The notes beneath the pieces are model-generated. The model was not told the DNA's origin. It saw nothing but the letters and a program-made list of their open reading frames with translations, and ran no database searches. Below, piece after piece: positions 7,388 through 57,348 of a DNA stretch of 64,000 nt; within the stretch, counting starts at the first letter, position 1, and each line of letters starts with the position of its first letter. The translations under genes were made by a program, and so were the position numbers. The stretch is taken from assembly GCF_004801285.1 (NCBI RefSeq), contig NZ_SSNY01000007.1, positions 62,001-126,000 of the forward strand, read 5' to 3'. This stretch comes from Ollibium composti. Its GTDB lineage: Bacteria > Pseudomonadota > Alphaproteobacteria > Rhizobiales > Rhizobiaceae.

Positions 7388-7413
7388 GAAGATGAAGGTC
7401 ATTCTTCATCTTC
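7388..7413. repeat. Perfect 10-bp hairpin upstream of the guanylyltransferase gene
   Basis: GAAGATGAAG (7388-7397) and CTTCATCTTC (7404-7413) form a perfect stem with a 6-base loop, about 105 bp before the ATG at 7518. No T-run follows on either strand. It may form in the mRNA leader or be an operator; the function is unknown. Confidence 0.4.
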
Positions 7414-7517
7414 GGCTCTTCCGCTTCTGTCGTGGAGCGATATGGTCGGTCAGTCGGCTCTGGCGATGAGATTCGCTTTGCCGATCCGTATGGGCTACGG
7501 GGTGGGGTGGCAGTGGA

Positions 7518-9749
7518 ATGAACGAGCAGGTGGTCTGCTTTGTTCTGGCGGGAGGGGCCGGAACGCGGCTGTGGCCTTTGTCGAGGCCCGAAAAGCCAAA
7601 GCAATTCCATGATCTGTGTGGCGCCGGCACGATGCTGGCGCGGACGTTGCACCGGCTGAAAGGACGACCTGAAGGAGCGACTCCTCTCTTCGTGATCGCA
7701 GCCGAGCGACATGCGGCTCTGGTGCATCGGGAAGTCGCGGAAATCGACCTTGCCGGCGGAGTCCTGCTTGAGCAGAGAGGGCGCGACACGGCCGCCGCCG
7801 TGGCTCTGGCGACGCTTGAGACCCTCCGCACCTTCGATGATTCCCTCATGCTGATCGCTCCGTCGGACCATGAGATTTCGACCGTCGGCCAGTTCTGGGA
7901 AACCGTCGAGAGCGGCATTCCGGCCGCCAATGCCGGACGTGTGGTGCTGTTCGGCGTCGAACCGCAGCATGCGGACACCGGCTACGGCTATATCGAGGCC
8001 GGCGAGCGTCATGGCGACGTTTTCGGCGTGCGGCGCTTCATCGAGAAGCCGGGGAGGGAGACCGCGGAGCGCTTTGTGCGCGACGGCGGCTTTCTCTGGA
8101 ATGCCGGCATTTTCCTCTTCCATGCGGAAACCATGCGCCGAGCCTTTCAGGCTTTGCAGCCGGCGCTGTGGGCGGCGGTCGAACAGGCCTTTCAGGCTGC
8201 TACAGGCGAGAAGGCAGCGCCACGTCTTTCGATCGACTATGGGGATATTCCTGCCGTCTCGTTCGATCGCGCCATCATCGAACGGCTCGACAATTTGGCC
8301 TTGGTCCTGGCCAGATTTGCCTGGACCGACCTCGGCTCATGGGAAGCGCTTCTGGCCGCAGCCGGGCCGGACGAGAACGGCAATGTTTTTGCTGGCGACG
8401 TGGCCGCCATCGACTGTCGCGGCTCCTACCTCAGCAGCGAGGGTCGGCACCTCTCCGTTGCGGGCGCCGAGCATCTAGCCATCGTCTCGACGCCGGACGC
8501 GGTATTCGTCGCGCCGGTAGGCCGCAAGCATGAGATGGGTCGGGCTGCCGATAGCGTGAGATATCAAGGCCTGCTTCCGGAGCCGACGCGGACGGAATTG
8601 ATCGGCACACAGCGCTGGGGGCATTGGCGGCCGCGCGTTCGACGCTGGTTGTTCGAGCAGGCACTGCCGCTTTGGGCGAACGTCGGCCCGGACAGGCGCC
8701 ATGGCGGTTTTTACGAGGCCATCGGCTTCGATGGCGATGCGCTGGACAAGCCGAAGCGCATGCGCACCATGGCCAGACAGGTCTACGCCTTTGCCGCTGC
8801 GCGACGGTATGGCTGGGACGGTCCGGCCGATCAGTTGATCGACCAGGGTCTTGCCTTCATCTCTCGTCAGGGCAGGACCGCCGCAGGCGGCTGGGTGCGC
8901 GCGCTCGATGCCGACGGCACGGTCCTGGATCCGGTGGAGGACAGTTACGACCAAGCCTGCGTGCTGCTGGCGCTCGCCGAGGCGCATCGGTGTGGCCATC
9001 CCGGTGCGCTCGCGCTGTGTCATGAGACACTCGTTGCCCTCGACGTCAAACTACGGACTGCCGGGTCGTTCGGCTATCTGGATGCCTCGGACGCCGATCC
9101 CGCCCGCCGGCGCTCCAACCCGCATATGCACCTGCTGGAGGCCTTTCTGGGCTGGCACGAAGCGACCGGCGACGGCGGGTTTCTCACGCGGGCAGAGGAG
9201 GTGATCGATCTTTTCGCATCGTGCTTCTTCGACCCGGAAAACTGGACGCTGGGCGAATGCTCGGATGCCGGCCGGACGCCAGCCAACAGGATCGGTGAGT
9301 TCGAGCCGGGTCACCATTTCGAATGGGCGTGGCTGATCGTGGATTTCGTGCGCCGAGCGGGGCGACCCGATCTGGTCGCCTTTGCCCGTAAGCTTTATGC
9401 CACGGCCGTCGCCAACGGCGTCAACCGCGCCACCGGCCTTGCTTTGGGTCGCGTTTCGACAAGCGGCGTGCCGCTCGATCCGGTATCGCGCAGCTGGCCG
9501 CAGGCGGAGGCGATCAAAGCTGCCATCGCGCTGGATTCAGCCGGCGGAGCGGACTTGAAGCCTGAGATCGAGGAGCGCGTCGGCCGCCTGTTCGCATGGC
9601 ATCTCGATCCGGCTCCCGCTGGCCTTTGGATCGACCGCATCGGACCGGACGGCGAGCCGCTGGCATCCGAGGTGCCGGCCAGCATCCTCTATCATCTGGT
9701 CAGCGCCCTGACCGCCTATCTGGATTACAGCGCGGACGCTGCTCAATAG
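7518..9749 (+). CDS. Bifunctional mannose-1-phosphate guanylyltransferase / AGE-family isomerase
   Basis: 743 residues with two clear parts. Residues 1-350 are a sugar nucleotidyltransferase: [20 protein letters not shown] (GTP/metal site), [21 protein letters not shown] and WNAGIF, the signatures of GDP-mannose pyrophosphorylase. It would make GDP-mannose from mannose-1-phosphate. Residues 370-743 resemble the N-acylglucosamine 2-epimerase (AGE) alpha/alpha-barrel family, with [40 protein letters not shown] and [12 protein letters not shown]-like domains in such proteins often act as mannose/mannose-6-phosphate isomerases. Type II enzymes such as AlgA/ManC fuse a cupin isomerase instead, so an AGE barrel apparently replaces it. 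The likely pathway is GDP-mannose supply for surface polysaccharide. The 3' end overlaps the convergent betB gene by 50 bp. Confidence 0.82.
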
Positions 9750-11205
9750 GGCTAGCGACGTCGCCCGTCTCCACATAGACGGTCTTGATCTGAGAATAGT
9801 GCTCCAGCGCCGCCAGCGAGTTCTCGCGGCCGATGCCGGATTGCTTGGTGCCGCCGAAGGGGATTTCCACCGGTGTCAGGTTGTAGGCGTTGATCCAGCA
9901 GGTGCCGGCCTGCAATTCGGAAATCACGCGGTGGGCGCGCGGCAGGTCGCGCGTGAAAACGCCGGCGGCAAGGCCGAATTCGGTGGCGTTGGCACGTTCT
10001 ATCACTTCGTCTTCATGGTCGAAGGAGAGCACGCTCATCACCGGCCCGAAGATCTCCTCGCGCGCGATGCGCATGGAATCCGTCACGCCGGTAAACACGG
10101 TCGGCTCGACGAAAAAGCCGCCTTCGAATCCTTGCAGGCTCGGAACGCCGCCGCCGCAGGCGAGCGTTGCACCTTCTTCCAGGCCGATGCCGATATAGGA
10201 GACGACCTTGTCGTGCTGCGCCTTGTTGACCAGCGGTCCCATCTGCGTGTCGGGGGCGAGCGGATCGCCGAGGCGGATTTTCTTGACACGTTCGACCAGC
10301 CGCTCCACGAAGCGGTCGTGAATGCCTTTCTGCACGAAGACCCGGGTGCCGTTGGAGCAGACCTGGCCGGCGGAATAGAAATTGCCCAGCATGGCGCCGC
10401 CGATGGCGTTTTCGATATCGGCGTCGTCGAAGACGATCAGTGGCGACTTGCCGCCGAGTTCCATCGTCGCGTGCTTCATCTTCGAGCCGGCGAGCGCCAG
10501 CACCCGGCGGCCGGTCGGCACCGAGCCGGTGACGGACACCTTGGCCGTCACCTCATGCTCGACCAGGGCGGCGCCGACGTCGCCATAGCCTTGCACGACG
10601 TTGAACAGCCCGTCCGGCAGGCCGGCCTCGGTGTAGATCTCGGCCAGCGCCAGTGCCGACAGCGGCGTGTTTTCGGACGGCTTGAAGACCATCGCGTTGC
10701 CCATCGCGAGCGCCGGGGCGGATTTCCAGCCGGCGATCTGGATCGGATAGTTCCAGGCGCCGATGCCGACGCAGACGCCCAGCGCCTCGCGCCGCGTGTA
10801 GGCGAACGGGCCGCCGAGATCGACGAATTCGCCGTTGAAGGCGGCAACCGCGCCGCCGAGATATTCCAGGCAGTCGGCGGCGGAAGGGGCGTCGGCCACC
10901 AGCGTCTCTTGCATCGGCTTGCCGGTGTCGAGCGTCTCCAGCCGCGCCAGTTCCTCGTTGCGGGCGCGCAATATGTCTGCAGCGCGGCGCAGGATGCGGC
11001 CGCGCTCCACCGGCTTCAGGCGCGCCCATGCCGGCTGCGCCGCGCGCGCTGCCTCGATGGCCAGTTCAATGATGTTGCGCGTCGCCGAATGCAGGCTGGC
11101 GATCACCTCGCCGGTGGCCGGGTAGGTGACCGGCAGCGCCGTGCCCTGCTCGTCGTCGACATAGCGGCCGTTGATGTGGTGCGAGGCTTTTGGCTGGGCT
11201 TTCAT
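9700..11205 (-). CDS. betB: Betaine aldehyde dehydrogenase
   Basis: 501 residues from ATG 11205 ([20 protein letters not shown]), with GGAGA nearby as Shine-Dalgarno; a longer reading from 11289 is rejected. It is an NAD(P)-dependent aldehyde dehydrogenase of the BetB type. [18 protein letters not shown] lies in the cofactor region, [12 protein letters not shown] carries the catalytic Glu, [12 protein letters not shown] carries the nucleophilic Cys, and the end has [20 protein letters not shown]. It oxidises betaine aldehyde to glycine betaine, the osmoprotectant. BetB proteins usually end soon after the VYVE-GDV motif; here about 15 extra Arg/Pro-rich residues follow, encoded antisense to the end of the convergent guanylyltransferase gene. 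It is the last gene of the betICAB operon. Confidence 0.95.
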
Positions 11206-44476: not shown

Positions 44477-44974
44477 ATGGCTGCTTCGTCGGCGGTTGCC
44501 CGGCACCGTGCCCAGCGCGCAGTTGTCGAAGGCACGGATATTTCGCTTGAGCGGATCGCCGAGGCGTGCGGGCGCTCGCCCGACGGGCTGAGGGTGCAGG
44601 CCGAACGCGAAGGATGGGCTCTGCGCTCCGGTTCCGGACAGGACGTGGCCGCGCGTGTGCGGCAGGTGGCCGGCCAGCTTCTCGGCCGGCTGGAGGCGCT
44701 GGGAAGCGGCGCCGGCGAGGGAGGAAAGGGGATCAGCAAGGCCGAGATCGACGGCATCATTGCCATGGTGCGCGGCCTCGACAAGATCGGCGAAATCATG
44801 CGGCCCGACGAGGCTGCCAAAGAGAACCAGATCGGATCGGATGAAGACGTGGCCGCCGTGCTCCAGCTCATTAACGACAGAATTATCGAGCTTGCCCGTG
44901 AACTCGCAGCTTCCCTGGTTGCGGAAAGTCGGGGAGCGAAGGATCTGGTCGATCCGCAACGAGTGGTTCCGTAG
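44477..44974 (+). CDS. GTA small terminase subunit (TerS, orfg1)
   Basis: 165 residues from ATG 44477 (MAASSAVARHRAQRAVVEGT), with GGGAAAG upstream. An N-terminal HTH-like element (ISLERIAEACGRSPDGLRVQ followed by AEREGW) is typical of small terminases. The middle is coiled coil (VRQVAGQLLGRLEALGSGAG) and the C-terminus is helical (DEDVAAVLQLINDRIIELAR). In RcGTA the equivalent protein supports unspecific packaging of cell DNA. It is the first gene after the promoter candidate and overlaps the large terminase gene. Confidence 0.75.
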   Translation: MAASSAVARHRAQRAVVEGTDISLERIAEACGRSPDGLRVQAEREGWALRSGSGQDVAARVRQVAGQLLGRLEALGSGAGEGGKGISKAEIDGIIAMVRGLDKIGEIMRPDEAAKENQIGSDEDVAAVLQLINDRIIELARELAASLVAESRGAKDLVDPQRVVP

Positions 44975-46181
44975 CGCACGTCTGGCGCAATACCCGCTGC
45001 TGGGATCGCCCGAGACGTGGTTGCTGCTCGGCGGGCGCGGCGCCGGCAAGACGCGAACCGGCGCGGAATGGATCAACGGGCTGGCGCGTTCCATACCGCC
45101 CTTCGCTGGCCACAAGCATTTTCGTCTGGCGCTGGTCGGCGAGACGCTGGCCGATGTGCGCGACGTGATGATCGAGGGCATTTCGGGCATCGCCACGATT
45201 TCGCGGCGGGAGCGGCCGCGCTTCGAGGCGAGCCGCCGCAGGCTCGTCTGGAAGGACGGGCAGGTGGCGCTGATGTTCTCGTCCGAGGATCCGGAAAGCC
45301 TGCGCGGCCACCAGTTCGAGGCGGCTTGGTGCGACGAGGTGGCCAAGTGGCGACATGCCGAGGACTGCTTCGACATGCTGCAATTCGGTCTCCGGCTCGG
45401 TGAGCGTCCGTTGCAATTGCTGACGACGACGCCGCGCCCGACCCGGTTGCTGAAGCGCCTGCTGGCGGACCCGATGGTCGTCAAGACCCATATGACCACG
45501 CAGGACAACAGCGCCAACCTGGCCGCCGGCTTCCTCGCCGCCGTGGAGCGGCGCTATGCTGGCAGCGTGCTCGGCCGGCAGGAGCTGGGTGGTGAGTTGA
45601 TCGAGGACCGCGCCGATGCGCTGTGGTCGCGCGGCCTGCTCGAAACGGCGATTGTCTCGACGCCTCGCGAACTGAAGCGCATCGTCGTGGCGGTCGATCC
45701 GCCGGCCAGTTCGCGCAAGACGTCCGACGCCTGCGGCATCGTCGCCGCCGGGTTGGACGGCGAGGGCAGGGCGGTCGTGCTCGCCGACGCGACACTGCGC
45801 GGCGCCCAGCCGCAGCGCTGGGCCTCGCAGGCCGTAGCCTTGTTTCATTCGCTGCGGGCCGATCGCCTGCTGGTCGAGGTCAACCAGGGCGGCGAGATGG
45901 CCTCGGCCGTGATCCGCACCGTCGATCCGGCCGTGCCGGTCAAGGCGGTCAGGGCGCGGCGCGGCAAGTGGCTTAGGGCCGAGCCGGTCGCAGCCCTCTA
46001 CCACCAGGGCAGGGTGCTCCATGCCGGCCGCTTCGCCGAACTGGAGGACGAGATGTGCGATTTCGGCCCGGACGGGCTGTCGAACGGCCACTCGCCGGAC
46101 CGGGTGGACGCGCTGGTGTGGGCGGTGACGGAACTGATGCCGGACCACGCGGCCGAGCCGCGGATACGTGAACTTCGCTGA
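44898..46181 (+). CDS. GTA large terminase / DNA packaging ATPase (TerL, orfg2)
   Basis: About 427 residues from GTG 44898; an in-frame ATG at 44841 would give 446. Neither has a clear Shine-Dalgarno, so the start is uncertain. The ATPase has Walker A LLLGGRGAGKTRTGAEW and Walker B-like FEAAWCDEVAKW, then the coupling motif LLTTTPRPTRLL. The nuclease part has VAVDPPASSRKTSDACGIVA, EVNQGGEMASAVIRTV and SPDRVDALVWAVTELM, with acidic residues in place. It would drive DNA into the prohead and cut it at headful. The gene is intact, although the capsid it should fill is missing here. Confidence 0.9.
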   Translation: MNSQLPWLRKVGERRIWSIRNEWFRSARLAQYPLLGSPETWLLLGGRGAGKTRTGAEWINGLARSIPPFAGHKHFRLALVGETLADVRDVMIEGISGIATISRRERPRFEASRRRLVWKDGQVALMFSSEDPESLRGHQFEAAWCDEVAKWRHAEDCFDMLQFGLRLGERPLQLLTTTPRPTRLLKRLLADPMVVKTHMTTQDNSANLAAGFLAAVERRYAGSVLGRQELGGELIEDRADALWSRGLLETAIVSTPRELKRIVVAVDPPASSRKTSDACGIVAAGLDGEGRAVVLADATLRGAQPQRWASQAVALFHSLRADRLLVEVNQGGEMASAVIRTVDPAVPVKAVRARRGKWLRAEPVAALYHQGRVLHAGRFAELEDEMCDFGPDGLSNGHSPDRVDALVWAVTELMPDHAAEPRIRELR

Positions 46182-46192
46182 CAGGATGGGAT

Positions 46193-47374
46193 ATGGCTTG
46201 GACATGGCCTTGGCCCCGCAAGGGGAACGGCGCCGGTGTGCGCGTGGAAACGAAGGGCGGCGCCCCAGGCGGTTTCATCGCCTTCCAGGCGCAGGCCGAG
46301 GCGCGCTGGACGCGCCGCGACTATGCCGCGCTGGCGCGCGAAGGGTTCATGAGGAACCCGATCGTCCACCGCTCGGTGCGGCTGATCGCCGAAACCGCAT
46401 CGGCGATCCCGTGGCTGCTCTATGAGGGGGCGGCGGAGATCGAGGAGCACCCGTTGCTGAAACTGCTCGGCCAGCCGAACCAGCGGCAGGCCGGCGCGAC
46501 GTTCTTCGAGGCGCTGTACGGCCACCTTCTGCTCGCCGGCAACGCCTATGTCGAGCTGATCGAGGCGGGTGGCGATGCGCGCGAACTGCATCTCCTGCGC
46601 CCCGATCGGGTCACGGTGGAAACGGACGCAACCGGTTGGCCGGTGGCGCTCGATCATCGCGAAGGGTCGGTGCACCGCAAGATGCTGCTCGGCGCCGGCG
46701 AGGGGGGCGGAGCGCTGCATCTGAGGCTCTTTCACCCGCTCGATGACCACTACGGTTTTCCGCCGCTGGAAGCGGCCCTGATGGCGCTCGACACGCATAA
46801 CGCCGCAGGCACCTGGAACAAGGCGCTGCTCGATAATTCGGCGCGGCCCTCCGGCGCGCTGGTCTATGCGCCGAAGGACGGCGGCAACCTGAGCGACGAA
46901 CAGTTCGACCGGCTGAAAGCGGAACTGGAGGAAGGTTATTCCGGCGCCCGCAGGGCGGGACGGCCGCTGCTTCTGGAAGGTGGACTGGACTGGAAGGCGA
47001 TGGCGCTGTCGCCGAAGGACATGGACTTCATCGAGGCGAAGCATTCGGCCAGCCGCGATATCGCGCTTTCCTTCGGCGTGCCGCCGATGCTGCTCGGCAT
47101 TCCCGGCGACAACACCTACGCCAATTATCAGGAAGCCAACCGCGCCTTCTACCGGCTGACCGTACTGCCACTGGTGGCGCGCACCGCCAAGGAACTGTCG
47201 GCCTGGCTGGCCGGGCCGTTCGGCGAAGGCTTGCGTCTCTGGTACGACGCCGACCGCATCGAAGGCCTGTCCAGCGAGCGCGATGCGCTGTGGAAGCGCG
47301 TCGATGCGGCCTCCTTCCTCACCGAGGACGAGAAGCGCGAGGCGGTCGGCTACCAGCCGCGCGGTCTCGGCTGA
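46193..47374 (+). CDS. GTA/HK97-type portal protein (orfg3)
   Basis: 393 residues, the expected length for GTA portals. It has FMRNPIVHRSVRLIAETASA, EALYGHLLLAGNAYVELIEA, FHPLDDHYGFPPLEAALMAL and the C-terminal HSASRDIALSFGVPPMLLGI followed by PGDNTYANYQEANRAFYR, all standard in HK97 gp3-family portals. It forms the dodecameric ring for DNA entry and tail attachment. The ATG is 12 bp after the terminase stop. It is intact. Confidence 0.93.
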   Translation: MAWTWPWPRKGNGAGVRVETKGGAPGGFIAFQAQAEARWTRRDYAALAREGFMRNPIVHRSVRLIAETASAIPWLLYEGAAEIEEHPLLKLLGQPNQRQAGATFFEALYGHLLLAGNAYVELIEAGGDARELHLLRPDRVTVETDATGWPVALDHREGSVHRKMLLGAGEGGGALHLRLFHPLDDHYGFPPLEAALMALDTHNAAGTWNKALLDNSARPSGALVYAPKDGGNLSDEQFDRLKAELEEGYSGARRAGRPLLLEGGLDWKAMALSPKDMDFIEAKHSASRDIALSFGVPPMLLGIPGDNTYANYQEANRAFYRLTVLPLVARTAKELSAWLAGPFGEGLRLWYDADRIEGLSSERDALWKRVDAASFLTEDEKREAVGYQPRGLG

Positions 47375-47391
47375 ATTACGGACCCAGGATC

Positions 47392-47745
47392 ATGAACGAT
47401 ATGTCTCAAACGGCCTGGCTGTGGCTGGCCAAGGCCGGCGGCGCCGTCGCCGGTTCCGCAATCTCGCTCGCCTACATGCTACCGCATGGCAGGCGCGAGG
47501 CAGCCGCGCGCTTCGCAGTCGGCGTCGTGTGCGGAATGGTGTTCGGCGGCACGGCCGGCCTCAAGGTGGCGTCCAAACTCGAGATCGAGACAGCGATTGG
47601 CCCGACGGAGCTCATGCTGATGGGATCCGCAGTGGCGAGCCTGTGCGCCTGGTGGGCGCTCGGCTTCGTCGTGCGTGCCTTCCAGCAGAACGGGATAGGA
47701 AGCCTCTTTGGCAAGAAAAATCAGGAGAATGCCGATGATCGGTGA
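47392..47745 (+). CDS. DUF6107 small membrane protein of the GTA head module (g3.5 position)
   Basis: 117 residues. It has three probable membrane helices (LAKAGGAVAGSAISLAYMLP; RFAVGVVCGMVFGGTAGLKV; ELMLMGSAVASLCAWWALGF). It sits between portal and protease, where RcGTA has the unexplained gene g3.5. A holin-like or scaffolding role has been imagined for such proteins, but nothing is shown. Its stop overlaps the start of the prohead protease remnant by 11 bp. Confidence 0.75.
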   Translation: MNDMSQTAWLWLAKAGGAVAGSAISLAYMLPHGRREAAARFAVGVVCGMVFGGTAGLKVASKLEIETAIGPTELMLMGSAVASLCAWWALGFVVRAFQQNGIGSLFGKKNQENADDR

Positions 47746-48023
47746 GGTGCGGCCGACCGAACGCAAGTTCGTCGATCTGGTGCTCGACAAGGTTGGCGCG
47801 GACGGCACGTTCTCCGGATATGCCCGATATCGGCGCCGACGCCACACCGATCGCCTTCGGTGATTTCGGCCGTGGTTATCTGGTCGTCGACCGTGCGGGT
47901 GTGAGGGTGCTGCGCGACCCGTACTCCGCCAAGCCCTATGTGCTGTTCTACACGACCAAGCGCGTCGGCGGCGGCGTGCAGGACTTCGACGCCATCAAGC
48001 TCCTGAAGTTCGGCACTGCCTGA
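47735..48023 (+). pseudogene. Deletion scar: prohead protease start fused out of frame to major capsid protein end (orfg4-orfg5)
   Basis: A Shine-Dalgarno (AGGAGA, 47723-47728) and ATG at 47735 begin a GTA prohead protease: MIGEVRPTERKFVDLVLDKV then GADGTFSGYA, the usual start of the family. After codon 30 the match stops and the frame ends at a TGA (47861-47863). From 47820, in the +1 frame, the DNA encodes the last 67 residues of an HK97-type GTA major capsid protein: MPDIGADATPIAFGDFGRGY, LVVDRAGVRVLRDPYSAKPY, then KRVGGGVQDFDAIKLLKF. The protease catalytic residues and about five sixths of the capsid are absent. From usual family lengths (about 190 and 390-400 residues), roughly 1.5 kb is missing. 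No in-frame fusion protein can be made without a frameshift. Confidence 0.9.
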
Positions 48024-48029
48024 GTGCTT

Positions 48030-48106
48030 CTCCCGTCCCTTTCTGAGCGGGGCGGGAGTCGATGGCGGCTCCGGTGTTTCCTCCCCGCCGGAGCCGCTTT
48101 TCCTTT
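48030..48106 (+). terminator. Tandem hairpins with intrinsic terminator after the capsid remnant
   Basis: Hairpin 1: CTCCCGTCCC (48030-48039) with GGGGCGGGAG (48049-48058). Hairpin 2: GCGGCTCCGG (48065-48074) with CCGGAGCCGC (48088-48097), a perfect 10-bp stem, followed by TTTTCCTTT (48098-48106). Hairpin 2 has the form of a rho-independent terminator inside the GTA operon, 18 bp before the connector gene. Confidence 0.8.
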
Positions 48107-48124
48107 CTCCATGAAGGCTGACGC

Positions 48125-48694
48125 ATGACGCTTATCCGCACCGTAGATCCGGTCGCCGAACCGGTGACATTGGCCGAGGCAAAGGCCCATCTGCGCATCG
48201 ATCACACCGACGACGACGAACTGCTCGCCGGCCTTGTCCGCGCCGCCCGACAGGAGGTCGAGCGCAGCACCGGCATGGCGCTGCTTTTGCAAAGCTGGCG
48301 GCTCGTCCTCGACGATTTGCCCGAGAGCGGCTGCGCGCTCGTCAGGATCCATCCGCTGCGCGAAGTGCAGTCCGTCACAGCCTTCGGCAGCGAAGGCGAG
48401 GGGACGATCATAGACCCTGCCACCTATCAGGTCGATGCCGTGTCGCGGCCGGCGCGCATCCATTTCAACGCCTCCGTCGCGCCGCTGCGCGCGATGAACG
48501 GGCTGGAGATCGACTTCACCGCCGGCTTCGGCGAGGCAGGTACCGACGTGCCCGATCCGCTGAAGCGGGCGATCCTGCTTTTGGTTGCGCACTGGTACGA
48601 ATTACGCGCCGGCTACGGCCCGGCCGACCAGCCCGTTTCCTATCCCGCCGGCTTCGACCGCATCGTCGCCGGCTATCGCGCGGGGCGGCTGTGA
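48125..48694 (+). CDS. GTA head-tail connector protein (orfg6)
   Basis: 189 residues. The N-terminal VAEPVTLAEAKAHLRIDHTD with DDDELLAGLVRAARQEVERS is the phage gp6/QLRG-type connector domain. The middle has VRIHPLREVQSVTAFGSEGE, and the end has DVPDPLKRAILLLVAHWYEL. It sits on the portal and starts the neck of the particle. Expression depends on reading through the terminator just upstream. The stop overlaps the next ATG (TGATG). Confidence 0.9.
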   Translation: MTLIRTVDPVAEPVTLAEAKAHLRIDHTDDDELLAGLVRAARQEVERSTGMALLLQSWRLVLDDLPESGCALVRIHPLREVQSVTAFGSEGEGTIIDPATYQVDAVSRPARIHFNASVAPLRAMNGLEIDFTAGFGEAGTDVPDPLKRAILLLVAHWYELRAGYGPADQPVSYPAGFDRIVAGYRAGRL

Positions 48695-49029
48695 TGGGGA
48701 AAACCTTTGTCGATCCCGGCGCGCTGCGCACCCGGCTGGTGCTTCAGACGGTGACGGCCGTGCCGGACGATCTCGGCGGGTTTGCCGAAAACTGGAGCGA
48801 CGTTGCCACCGTCTTTGCCCGCATCGAGCCGGTCTCGGCCGACAGTCGGTTCGGCGCCGGTCAGACGCTGGAGGCGGTGACGCACTGCATCACCTTGCGT
48901 CATCGCGGCGATGTCGAAGCCGACATGCGCCTTGCCGGCGGTGGCCGCTTCTTCCTGATCGTCACCGCGCACGATCCCGACGAGAGCGGCCGCTACCTTT
49001 TGTGCCGGACGCGGGAGACGACCATATGA
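48694..49029 (+). CDS. GTA head closure / stopper protein (orfg7)
   Basis: 111 residues from ATG 48694; a GTG two bases earlier in phase (48691) is possible. It is a phage head-tail joining family: LRTRLVLQTVTAVPDDLGGF then AENWSDVATVFARIEPVSAD, ending GRFFLIVTAHDPDESGRYLL. It closes the neck below the connector. It is translationally coupled to its neighbour on both sides. Confidence 0.88.
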   Translation: MGKTFVDPGALRTRLVLQTVTAVPDDLGGFAENWSDVATVFARIEPVSADSRFGAGQTLEAVTHCITLRHRGDVEADMRLAGGGRFFLIVTAHDPDESGRYLLCRTRETTI

Positions 49030-49214
49030 AGGTGACGATGGCGATGACGCTCGACGGCCTCGTGCGCGCTTTGCGCTGGAAGGCGCTCGATCTGGCCGAA
49101 CAGGCCGAGCGTGGCACCCTTTCGGCAAGGCAGGCGCCGATGGAAAGGCGGAACTCCGCCCGGATAACGGAATTCCGCGGCAAGGAGGATGGCGATGATC
49201 GCGGCCGCGGCTGA
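49026..49214 (+). CDS. Small unknown gene within the GTA cluster (62 aa)
   Basis: 62 residues from ATG 49026 (overlapping the orfg7 stop) to TGA 49214 (overlapping the orfg8 start by 20 bp). Sequence: MKVTMAMTLDGLVRALRWKA then LDLAEQAERGTLSARQAPME and a charged tail. The first 30 residues are an amphipathic helix. The tight overlaps on both sides suggest a real gene; I do not recognise the family. RcGTA has no obvious equivalent that I can name. Confidence 0.55.
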   Translation: MKVTMAMTLDGLVRALRWKALDLAEQAERGTLSARQAPMERRNSARITEFRGKEDGDDRGRG

Positions 49215-49602
49215 TCTTCAGAAGGCGATCTTTTCCGCGCTGGGTGCGGAGAGCGCGCTGACGGCGCTGCTCGGCGGCGCCAAGGTGTTCGACCGGGCAC
49301 CGGCAAACGTCCGCTTTCCCTACGTGACGTTCGGCATGACCGGCATTTACGACTGGAGCACCGCCACCGAAAAAGGTGCCGAACAGCTTTTCACCCTGCA
49401 CGTCTGGTCGAAGACCCAGGGCAAGAAGGAAACGCTGGATATCATGGAAGCCATCCGGGCGCGGCTGGAGGAGCCGCTTGCGCTGGAGGCCCATCGCCTG
49501 GTCGCCCTGCGGCTGGACTATTCGGAGGCGCGCTATGACGAGGATCTGCTGATCCATCACGGCTTGCTGCGCTTCCGCGCCATGATCGAGGACGACGCCT
49601 GA
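49195..49602 (+). CDS. GTA tail terminator, DUF3168 (orfg8)
   Basis: 135 residues from ATG 49195. An ATG at 49189 is too close to the AAGGAGG (49182-49188), which fits 49195. DUF3168 features: DLQKAIFSALGAESALTALL, KVFDRAPANVRFPYVTFGMT, FTLHVWSKTQGKKETLDIME. It caps the end of the tail tube where it meets the neck. Confidence 0.9.
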   Translation: MIAAAADLQKAIFSALGAESALTALLGGAKVFDRAPANVRFPYVTFGMTGIYDWSTATEKGAEQLFTLHVWSKTQGKKETLDIMEAIRARLEEPLALEAHRLVALRLDYSEARYDEDLLIHHGLLRFRAMIEDDA

Positions 49603-49650
49603 GCGCGTCCGGTCCGATCCCATAATCGACAGCACAATCAGGAGGCCTGC

Positions 49651-50067
49651 ATGGGCGCGCAGAAGGGCAAGGACCTTCTTCTCAAACTCGATTCCACCGG
49701 CGAAGGCAGTTTCGTCACCGTCGCCGGCCTGCGGTCGAAACGTGTCGCCTTCAACAGCGAGACGGTGGACGTCACCGATGCGGATTCGGCCGGACGCTGG
49801 CGCGAACTGCTCGCCGGCAGCGGTGTGCAGCGCGCTGCCGTCAGCGGTTCGGGCATCTTCAAGGACGCCCAGTCCGACGCGCTGATCCGCTCGAAATTCT
49901 TCGCCGGGGAAATCGCCACGTGGCAGATGGCGATTCCGGATTTCGGTATCGTCTCCGGCCCGTTCCAGATCACCTCCCTGGAATATTCCGGCGCGCATGA
50001 CGGCGAGGTCACCTTCGAAATGGCGCTGGAGTCGGCGGGCGCCATCAGCTTCGCGGTGGTAGCATGA
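49651..50067 (+). CDS. GTA major tail (tube) protein (orfg9)
   Basis: 138 residues with GGAGG upstream. TP901-1-type major tail features: GKDLLLKLDSTGEGSFVTVA, RSKRVAFNSETVDVTDADSA, ELLAGSGVQRAAVSGSGIFK, and EYSGAHDGEVTFEMALESAG. It stacks to form the tail tube. The stop overlaps the next start by 4 bp (ATGA). It is intact. Confidence 0.92.
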   Translation: MGAQKGKDLLLKLDSTGEGSFVTVAGLRSKRVAFNSETVDVTDADSAGRWRELLAGSGVQRAAVSGSGIFKDAQSDALIRSKFFAGEIATWQMAIPDFGIVSGPFQITSLEYSGAHDGEVTFEMALESAGAISFAVVA

Positions 50068-50405
50068 GCGCGAACCGGCGACGCGGCGAGATTTCGGCGG
50101 AACTCGACGGCAGGCCGCACCGGCTGTGCCTGACGCTCGGTGCGCTGGCCGAACTGGAGGCAACCTATGCGGCCGACGACCTGACCGCCTTGGTCGAGCG
50201 TTTCTCGGCCGGGCGGCTGTCAGCGCTCGACATGATGCGCGTCATTGGCGCCGGCCTGCGTGGCGCCGGCGAGGACATCGCGGATGAAGAGGTCGGTGCC
50301 ATGCAGTGCGAAAACGGTGCCGCCGGTTTTGCGGCGATCGTGTCGGAGCTGTTGATGGCGACCTTCGGTTCCGCCGGTGGACAGGCTCCGACGCCAAACC
50401 CTTAG
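50064..50405 (+). CDS. GTA gp10-family tail assembly chaperone (orfg10)
   Basis: 113 residues: RGEISAELDGRPHRLCLTLG, ALAELEATYAADDLTALVER and LSALDMMRVIGAGLRGAGED are the GTA_gp10 family. These proteins act like the first part of the lambda gpG/gpT chaperone pair, which guide tape-measure folding. In many phages the pair is made by frameshifting; here the second part is a separate downstream gene (50450-50626). Confidence 0.88.
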   Translation: MSANRRRGEISAELDGRPHRLCLTLGALAELEATYAADDLTALVERFSAGRLSALDMMRVIGAGLRGAGEDIADEEVGAMQCENGAAGFAAIVSELLMATFGSAGGQAPTPNP

Positions 50406-50449
50406 ACGCAGCAGCGGGCGAGAGACTGGCCTTTCCGTGGGAGGAGGCG

Positions 50450-50626
50450 ATGGCCGTCGGTTTCGGCCTGCTGCGGCTTTCGCCGGAGGTGTTCTGGGCG
50501 ATGACGCCGGTCGAATTCGGCCATGCCGTGCGCGTCCGCTCGCCTGGACGCGGCCCGGTTCCCTTGCGTGCCGATCTGGTCGCGCTGATGCGTGCCTTCC
50601 CCGATCGTTCTGAAAAGGAGGCCTGA
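50450..50626 (+). CDS. GTA tail assembly chaperone, TIGR02216/rcc01693 type (orfg10.1)
   Basis: 58 residues from ATG 50450, with GGAGG at 50440-50444: MAVGFGLLRLSPEVFWAMTP then VEFGHAVRVRSPGRGPVPLR. This matches the short phage TIGR02216 family. The same frame is open upstream to a GTG at 50306, and the residues just before the ATG (LAFPWEEA) also look conserved, so translation may begin earlier (for example CTG 50426) or enter from orfg10 by frameshift. It probably works with orfg10 in tail assembly. Confidence 0.72.
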   Translation: MAVGFGLLRLSPEVFWAMTPVEFGHAVRVRSPGRGPVPLRADLVALMRAFPDRSEKEA

Positions 50627-50628
50627 TC

Positions 50629-51204
50629 TTGGCCGAAGACGTAACCGTTTCCGTCCGCGCCGATACATCGCCATTCGAGGCTGCGCTGGCGGATCTCGGC
50701 AAACTCTCCGAGAGCTTCGGCACCCAGATGGCCGGTGCGATGAAAGGGGCCGTCGTCAGCGGCAGGGAGTTCGACGATGTACTGCGCCGCATCGGGCTCA
50801 ACCTGGCGGGGTTGGCATTGAAGCAGGGGCTGCAACCACTGCAGTCGCTGGCCGGCTCGCTGTTCTCAGGCCTCATCGGCGGGTTGTCGGGCATCCTGCC
50901 CTTCGCCAAGGGCGGCGTGCCCGGCCACGTCGTGCCGTTCGCCGGCGGCGGCGTTGTGTCGGCGCCGACCTATTTCCCGCTTGGCGGCAATCTCGGCCTG
51001 ATGGGCGAGGCGGGATCGGAGGCGATCCTACCCCTGCGCCGCGGCGCCGACGGCAGCCTCGGCGTCGCCGCCGCCGGAGCGGCGGCACCGGTCAATGTCG
51101 TCTTCAACGTCACTGCGCAGGACGCGGCCTCCTTCCGCAAGTCCGAGGCACAGATCACCGGCATGCTGGCGCGCGCCGTCTCGCGCGGCACCCGAACCTT
51201 TTGA
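50629..51204 (+). CDS. GTA tape measure protein (orfg11)
   Basis: 191 residues from a TTG start with AAGGAGG 7 bp upstream. It has DVTVSVRADTSPFEAALADL at the start, a hydrophobic middle, LPFAKGGVPGHVVPFAGGGV and FPLGGNLGLMGEAGSEAILP, the conserved C-terminal motif of phage tape measure proteins. It is very short, as in other GTAs, implying a short tail. It follows the orfg10.1 stop by 2 bp. Confidence 0.88.
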   Translation: MAEDVTVSVRADTSPFEAALADLGKLSESFGTQMAGAMKGAVVSGREFDDVLRRIGLNLAGLALKQGLQPLQSLAGSLFSGLIGGLSGILPFAKGGVPGHVVPFAGGGVVSAPTYFPLGGNLGLMGEAGSEAILPLRRGADGSLGVAAAGAAAPVNVVFNVTAQDAASFRKSEAQITGMLARAVSRGTRTF

Positions 51205-51212
51205 GGCTATTC

Positions 51213-51863
51213 GTGACCGAACTTTCCAGCTTCCATGACGTGCTGTTTCCGCTCGGTGTCTCTTTCGGGGCGACGGGCGGACCGGAGCGGCGCAACGAGA
51301 TCGTCACGCTGACGTCCGGTCGCGAGAAACGCAATGCGCGCTTTTCGCAGTCGCGGCACTACTATGACGCCGGCACCGGTGTGCGCTCGCTCGACGATTT
51401 GCATGAGGTGATCGACTTCTTCGAGGCGCGGCGCGGTTCCCTGCACGCCTTCCGCTTCCGCGACCCGTTCGACATGAAATCCTGCCGGCCGGACGGTGCG
51501 CCATCCGCGCTCGACCAGGTGATTGGCGTGGGGGATGGTGCGACCGACCGCTTCGCGCTGGTCAAGGTCTACGGCATCGGTGACGACGCCTATCGCCGTC
51601 TCGTCACGAAACCGCGCCCGGCAACCCTCAGGATTGCCGTGGCGACCGTTGTGCAGGATGCGCCGTCCGCGTTCAGCTTCGACGCAGCGACCGGAGAGAT
51701 CGTCTTTGCGCAGGAGCATGTTCCGGCGGCCGGGACGGTCATTACCGCAGGCTACGAATTCGACGTGCCGGTGCGCTTCGACACCGAACGCCTTTCCATC
51801 AACCTGAAGGCCTTCAAGGCGGGACAGATCCCCTCCATTCCCTTGGTCGAGGTGCCGTTGTGA
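51213..51863 (+). CDS. GTA distal tail protein, DUF2460 (orfg12)
   Basis: 216 residues from GTG 51213. DUF2460/TIGR02217 features: FHDVLFPLGVSFGATGGPER, EIVTLTSGREKRNARFSQSR, LHEVIDFFEARRGSLHAFRF and the C-terminal EFDVPVRFDTERLSINLKAF. It forms the ring joining tail tube and baseplate hub. The stop overlaps the next GTG start by 4 bp. Confidence 0.92.
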   Translation: MTELSSFHDVLFPLGVSFGATGGPERRNEIVTLTSGREKRNARFSQSRHYYDAGTGVRSLDDLHEVIDFFEARRGSLHAFRFRDPFDMKSCRPDGAPSALDQVIGVGDGATDRFALVKVYGIGDDAYRRLVTKPRPATLRIAVATVVQDAPSAFSFDAATGEIVFAQEHVPAAGTVITAGYEFDVPVRFDTERLSINLKAFKAGQIPSIPLVEVPL

Positions 51864-52750
51864 CGGCTTACCCTGCTGCGCTTGCCGCGCATTTCTCGCG
51901 TGAGGTCACGACGGTCTGTCATTGCTGGCGCCTGGCCCGCAAGGACGGGGTCGTTGCGGGTTTTACCGATCATGACCGCAGGTTGATGGTCGGTGGCCTG
52001 GCCTTCGAGCCGGAAACCGGCTTTTCCGCCAGCGAGGCGCGCGACACGCTGGGCCTTGCGGTCGATACGGTCGACGTCGAGGGCGCTCTTTCGTCCGACC
52101 GTATCCGCGACGAGGATATCGCCGCCGGCCTCTACGACGGCGCCAGGGTGGAAACGCTTCTGGTCAACTGGCGCCAGCCTGTGGATTTCGTGGTGATCCG
52201 CACGGCCATCATCGGCAAAATCACGCGCAGCGACGAGCGCTTCGTTGCCGAGCTGGAAAGTCTCGTGACGGCGCTCGACCAGCCGAACGGGCGCTATGTC
52301 ACGCGCTCCTGCGATGCGGAACTCGGCGATGCGCGCTGCGGCTTCCTGCTTGCCCAGCCGGGTTTCACCGCAGCCGGTAGCGTCGTCGCGACCGGCGCCT
52401 CGGAGACGATGCAGGTCGCCGGCCTCGACGCTCACGAGTCCGGCTGGTTCTCGTCCGGCACGCTGACATGGACGAGTGGTGCGCGGGCGGGATGGGTCGA
52501 GCGCATCGTCGCCCATCGCAAGACGGAAAACGGAACCGTGTTCGTCCTGTTGCCGATTGTTGGTCCCGCCATCGAGGCCGGAGATGCCTTTTCGGTGACG
52601 GCCGGTTGCGACAAAAATTTTGCGACGTGCAAGGCGAAATTCGGCAATGCGCTGAATTTTCGCGGCTTTCCGCATCTGCCCGGCAACGATGCGGCCTATT
52701 CCTACGTGACCGACGGCGGAGCATTCGATGGCGGACCGGTCGTCCCATAG
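51860..52750 (+). CDS. GTA baseplate hub protein, DUF2163 (orfg13)
   Basis: 296 residues from GTG 51860. DUF2163/TIGR02218 features: EVTTVCHCWRLARKDGVVAG, GFTDHDRRLMVGGLAFEPET, YVTRSCDAELGDARCGF and the Cys-rich GCDKNFATCKAKFGNALNFR. The equivalent RcGTA hub protein carries an iron-sulfur cluster, and the paired cysteines needed are present here. It overlaps the next gene by 23 bp. Confidence 0.92.
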   Translation: MTAYPAALAAHFSREVTTVCHCWRLARKDGVVAGFTDHDRRLMVGGLAFEPETGFSASEARDTLGLAVDTVDVEGALSSDRIRDEDIAAGLYDGARVETLLVNWRQPVDFVVIRTAIIGKITRSDERFVAELESLVTALDQPNGRYVTRSCDAELGDARCGFLLAQPGFTAAGSVVATGASETMQVAGLDAHESGWFSSGTLTWTSGARAGWVERIVAHRKTENGTVFVLLPIVGPAIEAGDAFSVTAGCDKNFATCKAKFGNALNFRGFPHLPGNDAAYSYVTDGGAFDGGPVVP

Positions 52751-53195
52751 AATGGCAGGCGACAGTCCGCTGGCAGAGGCGATCGTCGCCGAGGCGCTGG
52801 CCTGGGTCGGCACGCCCTACCGGCATCAGGGTTGCCGCAAGGGTGTAGGCTGCGACTGTCTTGGGCTGGTGCGCGGTGTATGGCAGGCAGTCTACGGCCG
52901 GGAACTCGAACACCCCGGCGTCTACGCCGCCGATTGGTCGGAAGGCGGCGAGGGCGATCGGCTGGCCAGCGCGGCGCGCCGGCATTTCCGTGAAAAAGAC
53001 ATGGCGGATCTCGCGGCGGGAGACCTGCTGCTGTTTCGCTGGCGGCCGCATTGGCCGGCCCGGCATGTCGGCATAGCCGTGGGCACGGACGGTTTCGTCC
53101 ATGCCTATGAAGGAGCGGCCGCCGTCGTGCGGTCGCCGCTCGTTCCGCAATGGCGCCGCCGCATCGCGGCGGTGTTCGCCTTTCCAGATAGCTGA
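52728..53195 (+). CDS. GTA NlpC/P60 cell-wall peptidase (orfg14)
   Basis: 155 residues from ATG 52728, or 147 from ATG 52752. The NlpC/P60 fold is complete: AEALAWVGTPYRHQGCRKGV, catalytic C44 in GCDCLGLVRG, and H113 in ARHVGIAVG. It would sit in the hub and cut peptidoglycan of the recipient cell during DNA entry. It is intact and tightly packed between orfg13 and orfg15. Confidence 0.92.
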   Translation: MADRSSHRMAGDSPLAEAIVAEALAWVGTPYRHQGCRKGVGCDCLGLVRGVWQAVYGRELEHPGVYAADWSEGGEGDRLASAARRHFREKDMADLAAGDLLLFRWRPHWPARHVGIAVGTDGFVHAYEGAAAVVRSPLVPQWRRRIAAVFAFPDS

Positions 53196-53210
53196 CGTCC
53201 GGGAGCCTCG

Positions 53211-56200
53211 ATGGCGACTATTCTTCTGCAAGCGGCGGGTGCCTATCTCGGTGGCCTGCTCGGTCCTGTCGGCACGGCCATTGGCACTGCTGCCGGCGCT
53301 CTGGCCGGCTATGCCGTCGACCGGGCGCTGATCAACGGCACCAACCGCATCGAGGGACCTCGTCTCAGCGGCGCGCGTCCGTTCACCGCCGAGGAGGGCG
53401 TGGCGCTGCCGCGTCTCTACGGCACGGCGCGGCTTGGCGGCATCCTGATCTGGGCGACACGTTTCGAAGAGAGCAAGGCGACCCGGCGGCAGGGCAAGCT
53501 CGGCCCCAAGGTCACCGAATATTCCTACCACGCCAATGTCGCCTTCGCGCTATGCGAGGGTCAGATCGCCGGCATCCGCCGCATCTGGGCGGACGGTCGC
53601 GAGATCGATCGCGAGACGGTCGAGCTGCGCGTCTATCAGGGTACGGCTGAGCAACCGGCCGATCCGCTGATCGAGGCCAAGCAGGGGGCCGGCAATACGC
53701 CCGCCTATCGGGACGTCGCTTACGTCGTGCTCGACAGGTTGCCGATCGGCGACTACGGCAATCGTGTTCCGCAGATGCAGTTCGAGATCATCCGTCCGGT
53801 GGGCGAACTCCATCGCTCCGTGCGCGCCGTCGCGCTGCTTCCGGGCGCCATCGAATACGGCCTGTCGCCGGCCCTCGTCAGTCGGCAGCATCGTCCCGGC
53901 GAAGAGGATGCGGTGAACCGCAATGTCCTGTTTGCCGGGACCGATATCGCCGCCTCGCTCGACGAGTTGCAGGCGACGTGTCCCAACCTCGAGCATGTGG
54001 CGCTCATCGTTACCTGGTTCGGCGACGATCTGAGGGCAGGACACTGCCGTATCCGCCCGGCCGTGACGACCGCTAGCGGCAGCGGCTTGTCCAGCGATTG
54101 GGTCGTGTCCGGCGTCCAGCGCGCCGATGCGCCAGTCGTTTCCCGGCATGACGGCGGCGCAGCCTATGGTGGCACGCCGTCCGACCGCAGTGTGATCGAC
54201 GCCATTGCCGAGATCAAGGCGCGCGGACTGGGCGTCACGCTCTACCCCTTCCTGATGATGGACATACCTGATGGCAACGGCTTGCCCGATCCCTATGGAC
54301 GGCCTGCACAGCCGAGCTATCCCTGGCGCGGCCGCATCACGGCGGAACCCGCCCCCCTGCTGCCCGGCAGTGCGGACCGGACTGCTGCGGCTCGCGCCCA
54401 GGTCGACGCATTTTGCGGCGCGGCGCTGCCCGGCCAGTTTTTCGTGTCCGGCGATACGGTCATGTTTGCCGGATCGGCCAGCGACTGGGGATACCGCCGG
54501 CTGATCCTCCACTATGCCCATCTGGCCGCGCGCGCGGGCGGCGTCGATGCTTTTCTGATCGGCAGCGAACTGCGCGGGTTGACGACATTGCGCGACCAGG
54601 CGGATGCTTTTCCCTTCGTCGAGCAACTTTGTGCGCTGGCGGCGGATGCCCGGACGGTGCTCGGGGCCGGAACGCGTATCACTTATGGCGCCGACTGGAG
54701 CGAGTATTTCGGCCACCATCCGGCCGACGGCAGCGGCGACGTCTTTTTCCATCTCGATGCGCTGTGGGCGCATCCTGCCATCGATGCGGTCGGCATCGAC
54801 AACTATATGCCGCTGTCCGACTGGCGCGACGCCGACTATGCCGGCGGCAATCCGGACGGCTTCGCAAGTCCCTACGATCCGGCGGGCCTTGCCGGCGCCA
54901 TTGCCGGCGGCGAGGGCTTCGACTGGTACTATCCCGACGTCGCTGCGCGCGATGCCCGAGCCCGCGTGCCGATCACGGACGGCGCTTACGGCAAGCCGTG
55001 GACCTATCGCTACAAGGATATTGTGGGCTGGTGGTCAAACCGGCATTTCGACCGTGTCGGTGGGATCGAGAAAGCGTCTCCGACCGCCTGGGTGCCGCAG
55101 GCCAAGCCGATATGGATGACGGAATTGGGCTGTCCGGCGGTCGACAAGGGACCGAACCAGCCGAATGTCTTTCCAGATCCGAAATCGGCCGAGAACGGCA
55201 TGCCTTATTTCTCGGGCGGCGGCCGCTCGGACGCTGCCCAACATCGTTTCCTGGAAGCGCATGCCCGCCACTGGGATGTCGCCGCCGTCGGTTTCGACGA
55301 TGCGGCCAATCCGCTTTCATCCGTCTATGGCGGTCGCATGGTGGACTTCTCACGCATCTACCTCTGGGCCTGGGATGCCAGACCCTTTCCCGCCTTTCCG
55401 CTGCGCGGCGACCTATGGAGCGACGGCGCGAACTGGAACCGCGGCCATTGGCTGAACGGCCGCATCGCCAATCCGGCTTTGGGCGACCTTGTCAACGCGA
55501 TTCTCGCGGACCATGGACAGCCTACGGCCGACACCGGCGCTGTGACCGGCTCCGTCGCCGGTTATGTGGTCGATGATCCCACCTCCGCGCGCGCTGCGCT
55601 GGAACCGCTGCTCGACCTGTTCGGTCTTGTCGTGGCGCAAGGGGCCGACCGGCTGGTGCTGCGGCAGACAGGCGCTTCCGGCACCGCTGCTCTGGCGGTA
55701 AGCGAATTCGTCGCGGTGTCGGACGGGCCGGTGATCGAGACCAAGCGCGAGCCTGAGCACAATCTGCCGGCCGAAGCGATCCTGACTTTCCGCGATCCGC
55801 TCGGCGAATACCAAGCGGCGTCGGTCCGCAGCGTTCGGCTTGGCGCGCCGGGGAGTCGGCAACACGCGCTCTCCTTCCCCGGCGTGCTGGAGGCCGGCCA
55901 GGCCCGAGCCCTGCTTGACGATTGGCTGAAGCGCACCTGGTACGGCCGCGAGACGACCAGCTTTTCCCTGCCGCAGCCGCAGGTCGATGTGGCTCCCGGC
56001 ACCATCGTCACGGTCGCGGCATCCGGCAATCCTTCCGAGTTCATCGTCACCGAGGTCGAGGACGGTCTGGTCCGCAAGGTCTCGGCCCGACAGATCACAC
56101 GCGGTGCCCCGGCGGTTTGGTCGGGCGCGCTGCCCTCGGTAAGTGTGAGCGCGCCGGCGATTGTCGGGCAACCGCACGTCCTCTTCCTGGATCTGCCGGC

Positions 56201-57107
56201 AGCGGTGGGAAGCGGTGCGCCGCAGGACCAGTTTCGTGTGGCCGCCTGGCAAAAGCCGTGGCGCAGTCAGGCGATTTTCGTCGCTCCCGAAGAGACCGGT
56301 TTCACGGCTCGCGCGCTCGTGACAAAGCGCGCGAGCCTCGGCCGCCTGACGGCCGCTCTGGGTTCCGGCTTTGCCGGGAGGATCGACCGTGCCGGCTCGC
56401 TTTTCGTCGAACTGTTCGATACCGGGATTGCCAGCATCAGCCGTCTCCAGCTGTTGAACGGCGCCAATGCGGCGTCCATCCGTTCGGCGACCGGCGCATG
56501 GGAAATCCTGCAATTCGAAGCCGCCGAGGAGGTGGCGCCGCAGGTCTGGAAGCTGTCCGGTTTGCTGCGTGGCCAGCTTGGCACGACCGACGCCATGGCC
56601 GCAGGTGCACCGGCAGGCGCCGATTTTGTAGTTCTGGACGATGCGGTAACGCCGGCTGGCCTGCTGGCAGGCGAGGTGGGCCTGTCGCTGAACTGGCGTG
56701 CCGGGCCGTCTTCCCTGGATTTCTCCACCGACAATTTCGTCCAGACCGCCCAGGTTGGCGGCGTACGCGCGCTACTGCCCTACGCGCCCGTTCATCTCAG
56801 GGCGAAGCGCAACGACGGCGACGTCATGCTGTCCTGGATCCGGTGCGGCCGCATCGACGCGGACCAATGGGAAGGCAGCGAAGTGCCGCTGGGCGAGGAG
56901 AGCGAGCAGTATCGAGTGGAAATCGCGCCTGTGGGCGGCCCGGTGATCCGGATGGTGGACGTGGCGGAATCGCGCTGGATCTACGACGCCGCCGCGATCG
57001 CGAGCGATTTCGGCGGCCTGCCGGCGGCTATCGACCTGACGGTTCGACAGCTTGGCACTTCGATCGGCTGGGGCCTGCCTGCCAGCCGTCGTCTGGCGCT
57101 CGTCTGA
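53211..57107 (+). CDS. GTA host-specificity ('megatron') protein (orfg15)
   Basis: 1298 residues, full length for the family. The N-terminus has a glycine-rich hydrophobic segment (YLGGLLGPVGTAIGTAAGAL). The TIM-barrel-like GTA_TIM domain lies around residues 430-740 (TRITYGADWSEYFGHHPADG; DALWAHPAIDAVGIDNYMPL; WMTELGCPAVDKGPNQPN). It is followed by the phage tail-3 and Rcc01698-type C-terminal domains (GLLRGQLGTTDAMAAG; VHLRAKRNDGDVMLSWIRCG). It forms the central spike and fibre base that contacts recipient cells. A reading frame of this length with no stop is strong evidence that the tail module has not decayed. Confidence 0.93.
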   Translation: MATILLQAAGAYLGGLLGPVGTAIGTAAGALAGYAVDRALINGTNRIEGPRLSGARPFTAEEGVALPRLYGTARLGGILIWATRFEESKATRRQGKLGPKVTEYSYHANVAFALCEGQIAGIRRIWADGREIDRETVELRVYQGTAEQPADPLIEAKQGAGNTPAYRDVAYVVLDRLPIGDYGNRVPQMQFEIIRPVGELHRSVRAVALLPGAIEYGLSPALVSRQHRPGEEDAVNRNVLFAGTDIAASLDELQATCPNLEHVALIVTWFGDDLRAGHCRIRPAVTTASGSGLSSDWVVSGVQRADAPVVSRHDGGAAYGGTPSDRSVIDAIAEIKARGLGVTLYPFLMMDIPDGNGLPDPYGRPAQPSYPWRGRITAEPAPLLPGSADRTAAARAQVDAFCGAALPGQFFVSGDTVMFAGSASDWGYRRLILHYAHLAARAGGVDAFLIGSELRGLTTLRDQADAFPFVEQLCALAADARTVLGAGTRITYGADWSEYFGHHPADGSGDVFFHLDALWAHPAIDAVGIDNYMPLSDWRDADYAGGNPDGFASPYDPAGLAGAIAGGEGFDWYYPDVAARDARARVPITDGAYGKPWTYRYKDIVGWWSNRHFDRVGGIEKASPTAWVPQAKPIWMTELGCPAVDKGPNQPNVFPDPKSAENGMPYFSGGGRSDAAQHRFLEAHARHWDVAAVGFDDAANPLSSVYGGRMVDFSRIYLWAWDARPFPAFPLRGDLWSDGANWNRGHWLNGRIANPALGDLVNAILADHGQPTADTGAVTGSVAGYVVDDPTSARAALEPLLDLFGLVVAQGADRLVLRQTGASGTAALAVSEFVAVSDGPVIETKREPEHNLPAEAILTFRDPLGEYQAASVRSVRLGAPGSRQHALSFPGVLEAGQARALLDDWLKRTWYGRETTSFSLPQPQVDVAPGTIVTVAASGNPSEFIVTEVEDGLVRKVSARQITRGAPAVWSGALPSVSVSAPAIVGQPHVLFLDLPAAVGSGAPQDQFRVAAWQKPWRSQAIFVAPEETGFTARALVTKRASLGRLTAALGSGFAGRIDRAGSLFVELFDTGIASISRLQLLNGANAASIRSATGAWEILQFEAAEEVAPQVWKLSGLLRGQLGTTDAMAAGAPAGADFVVLDDAVTPAGLLAGEVGLSLNWRAGPSSLDFSTDNFVQTAQVGGVRALLPYAPVHLRAKRNDGDVMLSWIRCGRIDADQWEGSEVPLGEESEQYRVEIAPVGGPVIRMVDVAESRWIYDAAAIASDFGGLPAAIDLTVRQLGTSIGWGLPASRRLALV

Positions 57108-57141
57108 GCGACCGCACTTTTCTCAACGAAAGGACCCTGCC

Positions 57142-57348
57142 ATGACCATTAGCAAACCCTGGTATCTGTCCCGCACCATATGGGCGTCCATCGTGACAGT
57201 CCTGACCGGCGCCGCAGGCCTTACCGGCTTACCCATCGACGGCGTCGACGGACAGGCGCTGACCGAAACGCTGCTTCAGATCGTCAGCGCCGTGTCGGGA
57301 CTGGTGGCTATCTTTGGCCGGTTGTCGGCGAAGGCGAGGATAGGCTAG
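57142..57348 (+). CDS. Small phage-type membrane protein, holin-like
   Basis: 68 residues from ATG 57142. It has MTISKPWYLSRTIWASIVTV, a helix through LTGAAGLTGLPIDG, then TLLQIVSAVSGLVAIFGRLS. This two-helix shape, starting with W-Y-L-S-R-T-I-W-A, recurs beside phage and prophage lysis genes in alphaproteobacteria. It lies 34 bp after orfg15 and before the terminator, so it belongs to the GTA operon. A holin function is plausible but not shown; no endolysin gene is adjacent except the orfg14 peptidase. Confidence 0.65.
   Translation: MTISKPWYLSRTIWASIVTVLTGAAGLTGLPIDGVDGQALTETLLQIVSAVSGLVAIFGRLSAKARIG

Follow-up and report, generated by a model that had tools for sequence, protein, structure and literature searches.

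An RcGTA-like gene cluster without most of its protease and capsid genes, most likely after one recent short-repeat deletion

Relation to described GTA and tailocin systems

F-type tailocins are tail-only particles that stem from siphovirus-like gene sets. The cluster that we analyzed here shares with them a siphovirus-like tail gene set and has no capsid gene, but its packaging, portal, and connector genes are open, so that it does not retain tail genes alone, as a tailocin set stripped of the genes for head and packaging would. In gene content and order, from the terminase to a megatron with a GTA_TIM domain, it resembles the RcGTA-like clusters of the Rhizobiales branch, from which it differs in that its protease and major capsid genes are fragments. 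A third point of comparison is given by pseudogenized GTA clusters, which the accessible text of PMC10883770 interprets as recent "cheater" lineages. Like the clusters described there, the present one is otherwise whole and carries one lesion that disables an essential structural gene, while intact homologs are found alongside in near relatives. The likeness is to the general description in that text, not to its individual cases, and the lesion is resolved here to one 1,654-bp deletion at a short repeat. The locus is thus an instance of GTA pseudogenization as already described in general terms in the accessible text of that paper (PMC10883770). Our literature search returned no paper title on a headless GTA cluster, and the accessible portions of PMC9836097, PMC11409702, and PMC6821227 add nothing on this lesion.

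The window, i.e., the whole stretch of 64,000 nucleotides that was analyzed, comprises positions 62001 to 126000 of contig C7 in the genome of a relative of Mesorhizobium (referred to as G000 here; 4.65 Mb in a 36-contig draft, rated 99.97% complete), and the RcGTA-like head-tail cluster spans 44.4 to 57.1 kb of it. All of its genes lie on the + strand, and the names g1 to g15 follow the RcGTA order. The cluster opens with a putative small terminase, g1 (44480 to 44974), which is so called by position, is open with 86% amino acid identity to its counterpart in genome G120, and has no Pfam or PHROG match. It is followed by the large terminase g2 (44952 to 46181; PF03237 and PF17289; dN/dS of 0.11 to G120), the portal g3 (46193 to 47374; PF04860, E value of 2.9e-84; dN/dS of 0.05), and the DUF6107 gene g3.5 (47392 to 47745; PF19602), which overlaps the start of the protease gene. 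Beyond the remnants of g4 and g5 come the head-tail connector g6 (48125 to 48694; PF05135, phrog_442 head-tail adaptor) and the head completion protein g7 (48691 to 49029; PF05521), and then the tail terminator g8 (49189 to 49602; PF11367, phrog_176), the tail tube protein g9 (49651 to 50067; PF06199), g10 with the next tail chaperone genes (50064 to 50626; two tail chaperones, PF11836 and PF09550), and the short tape measure protein g11 (50629 to 51204; phrog_32885, E value of 5.2e-17). Genes g12 (DUF2460), g13 (hub), and g14 (NlpC/P60 peptidase) occupy 51213 to 53195 (PF09343, PF09931, PF09356, and PF00877) and precede the megatron g15 with its GTA_TIM domain (53211 to 57107; PF13547, E value of 2e-141). 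Just 3' of g15 lies a small holin-like gene (57139 to 57348; a weak match to the holin family phrog_34682, E value of 7.8e-5), which is open; G120 and other relatives conserve it as well.

Terminase, portal, head-tail joining, and tail genes therefore stand in GTA order together with the GTA_TIM megatron, as expected of an RcGTA-like cluster, and the gene order is co-linear with that of genomes G120, G060, G011, and G062, and with that of G030 up to the end of the G030 stretch. An earlier sequence-only reading of this DNA had held that the remaining structural genes are open, and indeed the other GTA genes that were examined contain no internal stop. From the large terminase to the megatron, the exceptions are g4 and g5: neither the prohead protease gene nor the HK97-type major capsid gene is intact, the former being left with 30 of 227 codons and the latter with 67 of 420.

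The junction between the protease and capsid genes

The g4 remnant (47735 to 47863, + strand) retains the native ATG of the prohead protease gene and 30 native codons, MIGEVRPTERKFVDLVLDKVGADGTFSGYA, up to position 47824, after which 12 out-of-frame codons lead to a stop; the encoded peptide has 42 amino acids. The g5 remnant (47820 to 48023, + strand), translated as MPDIGADATP...KLLKFGTA*, consists of the final 67 major capsid codons with the native stop and is contained in a 93-amino-acid open reading frame (47742 to 48023) that matches the Pfam model Phage_capsid at profile positions 210 to 280 of 280 (E value of 4.8e-20). The sequence-only reading, which had 30 protease codons from 47735 running into the final 67 capsid codons in another frame and had considered the protease start and the capsid stop retained, proved correct to the base, with the native ATG at 47735 and the native stop ending at 48023.

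That reading had also called for a comparison with close relatives that have the locus intact, and near relatives do retain g4 and g5. We compared the window with L032, a Mesorhizobium sp. metagenome-assembled genome (MAG) that is the top portal match among the best 80 of 515 named contigs and whose locus gives the same alignment to the window as that of G120, and with L205, an IMG/VR metagenome contig with 94 to 95% DNA identity to the window over 45021 to 53019; a further contig, L285, is 99.4% identical to L205 across their overlap. In L032 and L205, g4 (227 amino acids) and g5 (420 amino acids) are both open at this locus. Relative to L032/G120 as well as to L205, exactly 1,654 bp are absent from the window: the alignment breaks off at a repeat in g4 and resumes at one in g5, 1,654 bp farther on in both relatives. 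The loss covers most of the protease gene and five-sixths of the capsid gene, and given that 1,654 equals 3 × 551 + 1, the reading frame is lost. The missing stretch is bounded by an 8-of-9 direct repeat, GG[C/A]TATGCC, with an exact run of TATGCC. L205 has GGCTATGCC in g4 and GGATATGCC in g5, while the window has one copy, GGATATGCC, at the unstranded junction (47816 to 47824). Among 200,000 random breakpoint pairs drawn in L205, a shared run of at least 6 bases has a frequency of 0.37%, and an 8-of-9 match one of 0.04%. One short-repeat deletion accounts exactly for the junction, so that the earlier proposal of a single deletion removing the head module stands; its size, put at about 1.5 kb, has to be raised to 1,654 bp, and the ATGCC-type microhomology that it suggested is present in the more precise form of an exact TATGCC within the 8-of-9 match.

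We consider it very likely that this cluster, which lacks 1,654 bp and has the start of g4 out of frame with the end of g5, was shaped by one recent short-repeat deletion that would stop the formation of DNA-filled particles. The two repeat copies, GGCTATGCC of g4 and GGATATGCC of g5, may have been brought together by strand slippage or by end joining. An artifact, with g4 and g5 intact in the strain and the sequence collapsed or chimeric at the short repeat, is improbable. It would be compatible with a 36-contig draft assembly, assessed here at the level of contigs, and with a junction carried by a single record, but the junction lies at ∼109.8 kb of a contig of 268,848 bp, well away from either end, and capsid and protease models did not locate the missing piece at any other place in the genome. 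Moreover, a repeat of 6 to 9 bp is too short to mislead an assembler, which counts against an artifact.

Distribution among relatives and age of the deletion

A portal match with an E value of 1e-30 or better is present in 11 of the 146 genus genomes, G000 included, and reaches at least 75% identity in 10 of those 11 (the portal of G064 is in two pieces). Nine of these 10 also have a capsid match with at least 81% identity over at least 410 of 420 residues, the exception being G000. Among the named contigs retrieved by their portal (the best 80 of 515), 4 end before the end of the capsid gene, and 73 of the 76 assessable ones have a full open capsid gene; those without it are L086, L106, and L089. 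In L089, the capsid is split across several frames. L086 (Mesorhizobium sp. MAG ACE_PRO30, 7170 to 9620) keeps the portal, a piece of g7, g8, and the last third of g15, with nothing recognizable between the portal end and the g7 piece or between g8 and the remaining third of g15. The losses include protease and capsid as well as most of the tail genes, and the contig is a more advanced case of parallel decay. In L106 (Phyllobacterium myrsinacearum AN3, 8140 to 10720), capsid residues 8 to 375 abut the end of g15, and L109, a record under that species name, has its capsid in full and a connector. The lesions in L086, L106, and L089 indicate that structural-gene loss recurs in this GTA family.

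Other peculiarities of layout were seen along the way. In L108 (Phyllobacterium sp. KW56, 8006 to 9724), the gap from protease to capsid is ∼1.7 kb and the locus has no connector match, and in L037, L043, L053, L059, L061, and L068 the portal and protease genes are 1.5 to 3.5 kb apart, which suggests extra genes in this slot. Many IMG/VR contigs of 14 to 16 kb (e.g., L127, L132, L138, and L141) are chromosomal GTA clusters listed as viral. Since L094 (JAHREI010000009.1), titled Bacillus subtilis strain SK6B4, contains a Rhizobiales-type GTA cluster, this record is probably mislabeled or contaminated.

As for the junction itself, no other genome spanning it was found among the 146 genus genomes or among 61 family genomes (cutoff of 1e-60), and the exact 35-base junction pattern has no match in viral_contigs, in a search that may omit records very near the window. 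The 42-amino-acid junction peptide has one entry in the protein database, from the window's own contig, a weak indication given that small open reading frames often go uncalled. Within the databases and genomes searched, the exact 1,654-bp deletion is seen only in this genome. Short capsid fragments as such are more common: 1,529 of 1,542 protein-database candidates pass, many of the 120 listed lie on short contigs, and other truncated GTA capsids may be present among the fragments on long contigs.

The constraint on the remaining GTA genes is ordinary, with a dN/dS of 0.137 for the cluster versus G120 (18 rows) and of 0.03 to 0.25 for neighboring non-GTA open reading frames (n = 17; from 28 rows, 6 were GTA genes and 5 were dropped, 4 for stops in the aligned relative and 1 as antisense within the GTA). 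The capsid remnant shows 2 amino acid and 14 silent codon differences from G120 in 66 codons, is identical to L205 at 66 of 67 residues, and equals the last 67 residues of P0123, an intact 420-amino-acid capsid from another Mesorhizobium MAG. Three tests for relaxation disagree, and their p values, where low, lie near 0.05. With four outgroups, the window branch has a ratio of amino acid to silent changes of 74:116 and the G120 branch one of 86:84, a deficit in the window (p = 0.03). With G120 as outgroup, the ratio is 65:140 on the window branch versus 37:132 on the L205 branch, a mild excess in the window (p = 0.036) that would fit ∼10% (upper limit, ∼25%) of the window branch without constraint; this test covers the GTA genes alone, and a metagenome consensus may hide rare variants. 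Against the L285 branch, for g12 to g14 and the first half of g15, with part of g11 left out, the values of 37:75 versus 24:71 do not differ significantly (p = 0.28). The deletion is likely young relative to the split from L205, and it is likely a lineage-specific loss of function that shows GTA decay at an early point. Relative to G120, silent divergence is mostly 0.2 to 0.4 in g1 to g9 (44480 to 50067) and 0.45 to 0.74 in g10 to g15 (50064 to 57107), as would be expected had recombination replaced one portion of the cluster; no comparable step was seen versus L205.

The same branch comparison bears on another explanation of the locus, in which the head was lost and the tail was retained by selection as a tailocin-like particle. 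We regard this as highly unlikely, and give just as little credence to its extended form, in which a GTA would be turning into a headless tail machine whose tail, together with peptidase, megatron, and holin-like gene, is selected, released, and acts on kin. The tail genes are indeed all open, and the excess of amino acid changes versus L205 is nominally larger in the head genes (24:55 versus 13:64, p = 0.06) than in the tail genes (38:83 versus 23:65, p = 0.44), but the difference between the head and tail ratios is not significant (z = 1.0), and the terminase and portal genes as well as those for the connector and head completion are open too, which fits mere recency. In this cluster, known from its genes alone, there is no sign of release, killing, or long-term headless upkeep, and a search of paper titles found none on tail-only reuse of a GTA.

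Predicted consequences and significance

The need for the capsid gene in a GTA is supported by Caulobacter, where, according to the accessible text of PMC9632790, the GTA-dependent gain in survival disappeared when the terminase, the portal, or the major capsid gene was deleted. With the capsid and protease genes lost, the present cluster is predicted to yield no DNA-carrying particles: a cell with neither capsid subunit nor maturation protease would form no head and would package nothing, while terminase, portal, connector, and tail proteins would perhaps still be made. The sequence-only reading had named a second capsid and protease in the genome as what would overturn this prediction. A profile search of G000 with PF05065 (Phage_capsid) matched the g5 remnant as its single hit and one with PF04586 (S78 protease) gave no match, whereas each model found matches in 4 of 14 control genomes; likewise, the intact capsid protein of L032 as a query in G000 recovered the remnant alone, at residues 350 to 420 (12 of 21 candidates scored). 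Complementation of the cluster by a capsid and protease encoded elsewhere, with particles still being made, is thus extremely unlikely: G120, G061, and G062 do hold further capsids of the same family, 34 to 47% identical to the GTA capsid, but G000 showed none in these searches, which covered those two families and the one query in a draft genome with gaps.

Under the preferred reading of one recent deletion, the lineage would be at an early stage of GTA loss and could still receive DNA from producing relatives, i.e., be at a "cheater" stage. Lysis would perhaps still follow induction of the cluster. Given that the holin-like gene is open and that, in the accessible text of PMC6209664, the R. 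capsulatus lysis genes lie outside the main GTA cluster, loss of the head alone may not spare the lysis cost, which would make this lineage an imperfect cheater. We also considered whether a GH108 endolysin could mark GTA lysis. It occurs in 4 of 8 genomes and is absent in G000, but at two of the four loci (L121 and L124) the surrounding open reading frames look phage-like, and it was set aside as uninformative.

The molecular event itself is ordinary, and the interest of the locus, which is moderate, lies in the natural test pair that it offers, with a sharply defined lesion. The long persistence of GTAs, even though modeling favors nonproducers, is presented as an open question in the accessible text of PMC6209664. 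A natural genome without a head module and an intact sister population (L205 and L285, 94 to 95% DNA identity) would form a ready-made pair, which could be used to ask what producers gain, whether cells that lose the head are freed from the cost of lysis, and whether tails have any effect by themselves.
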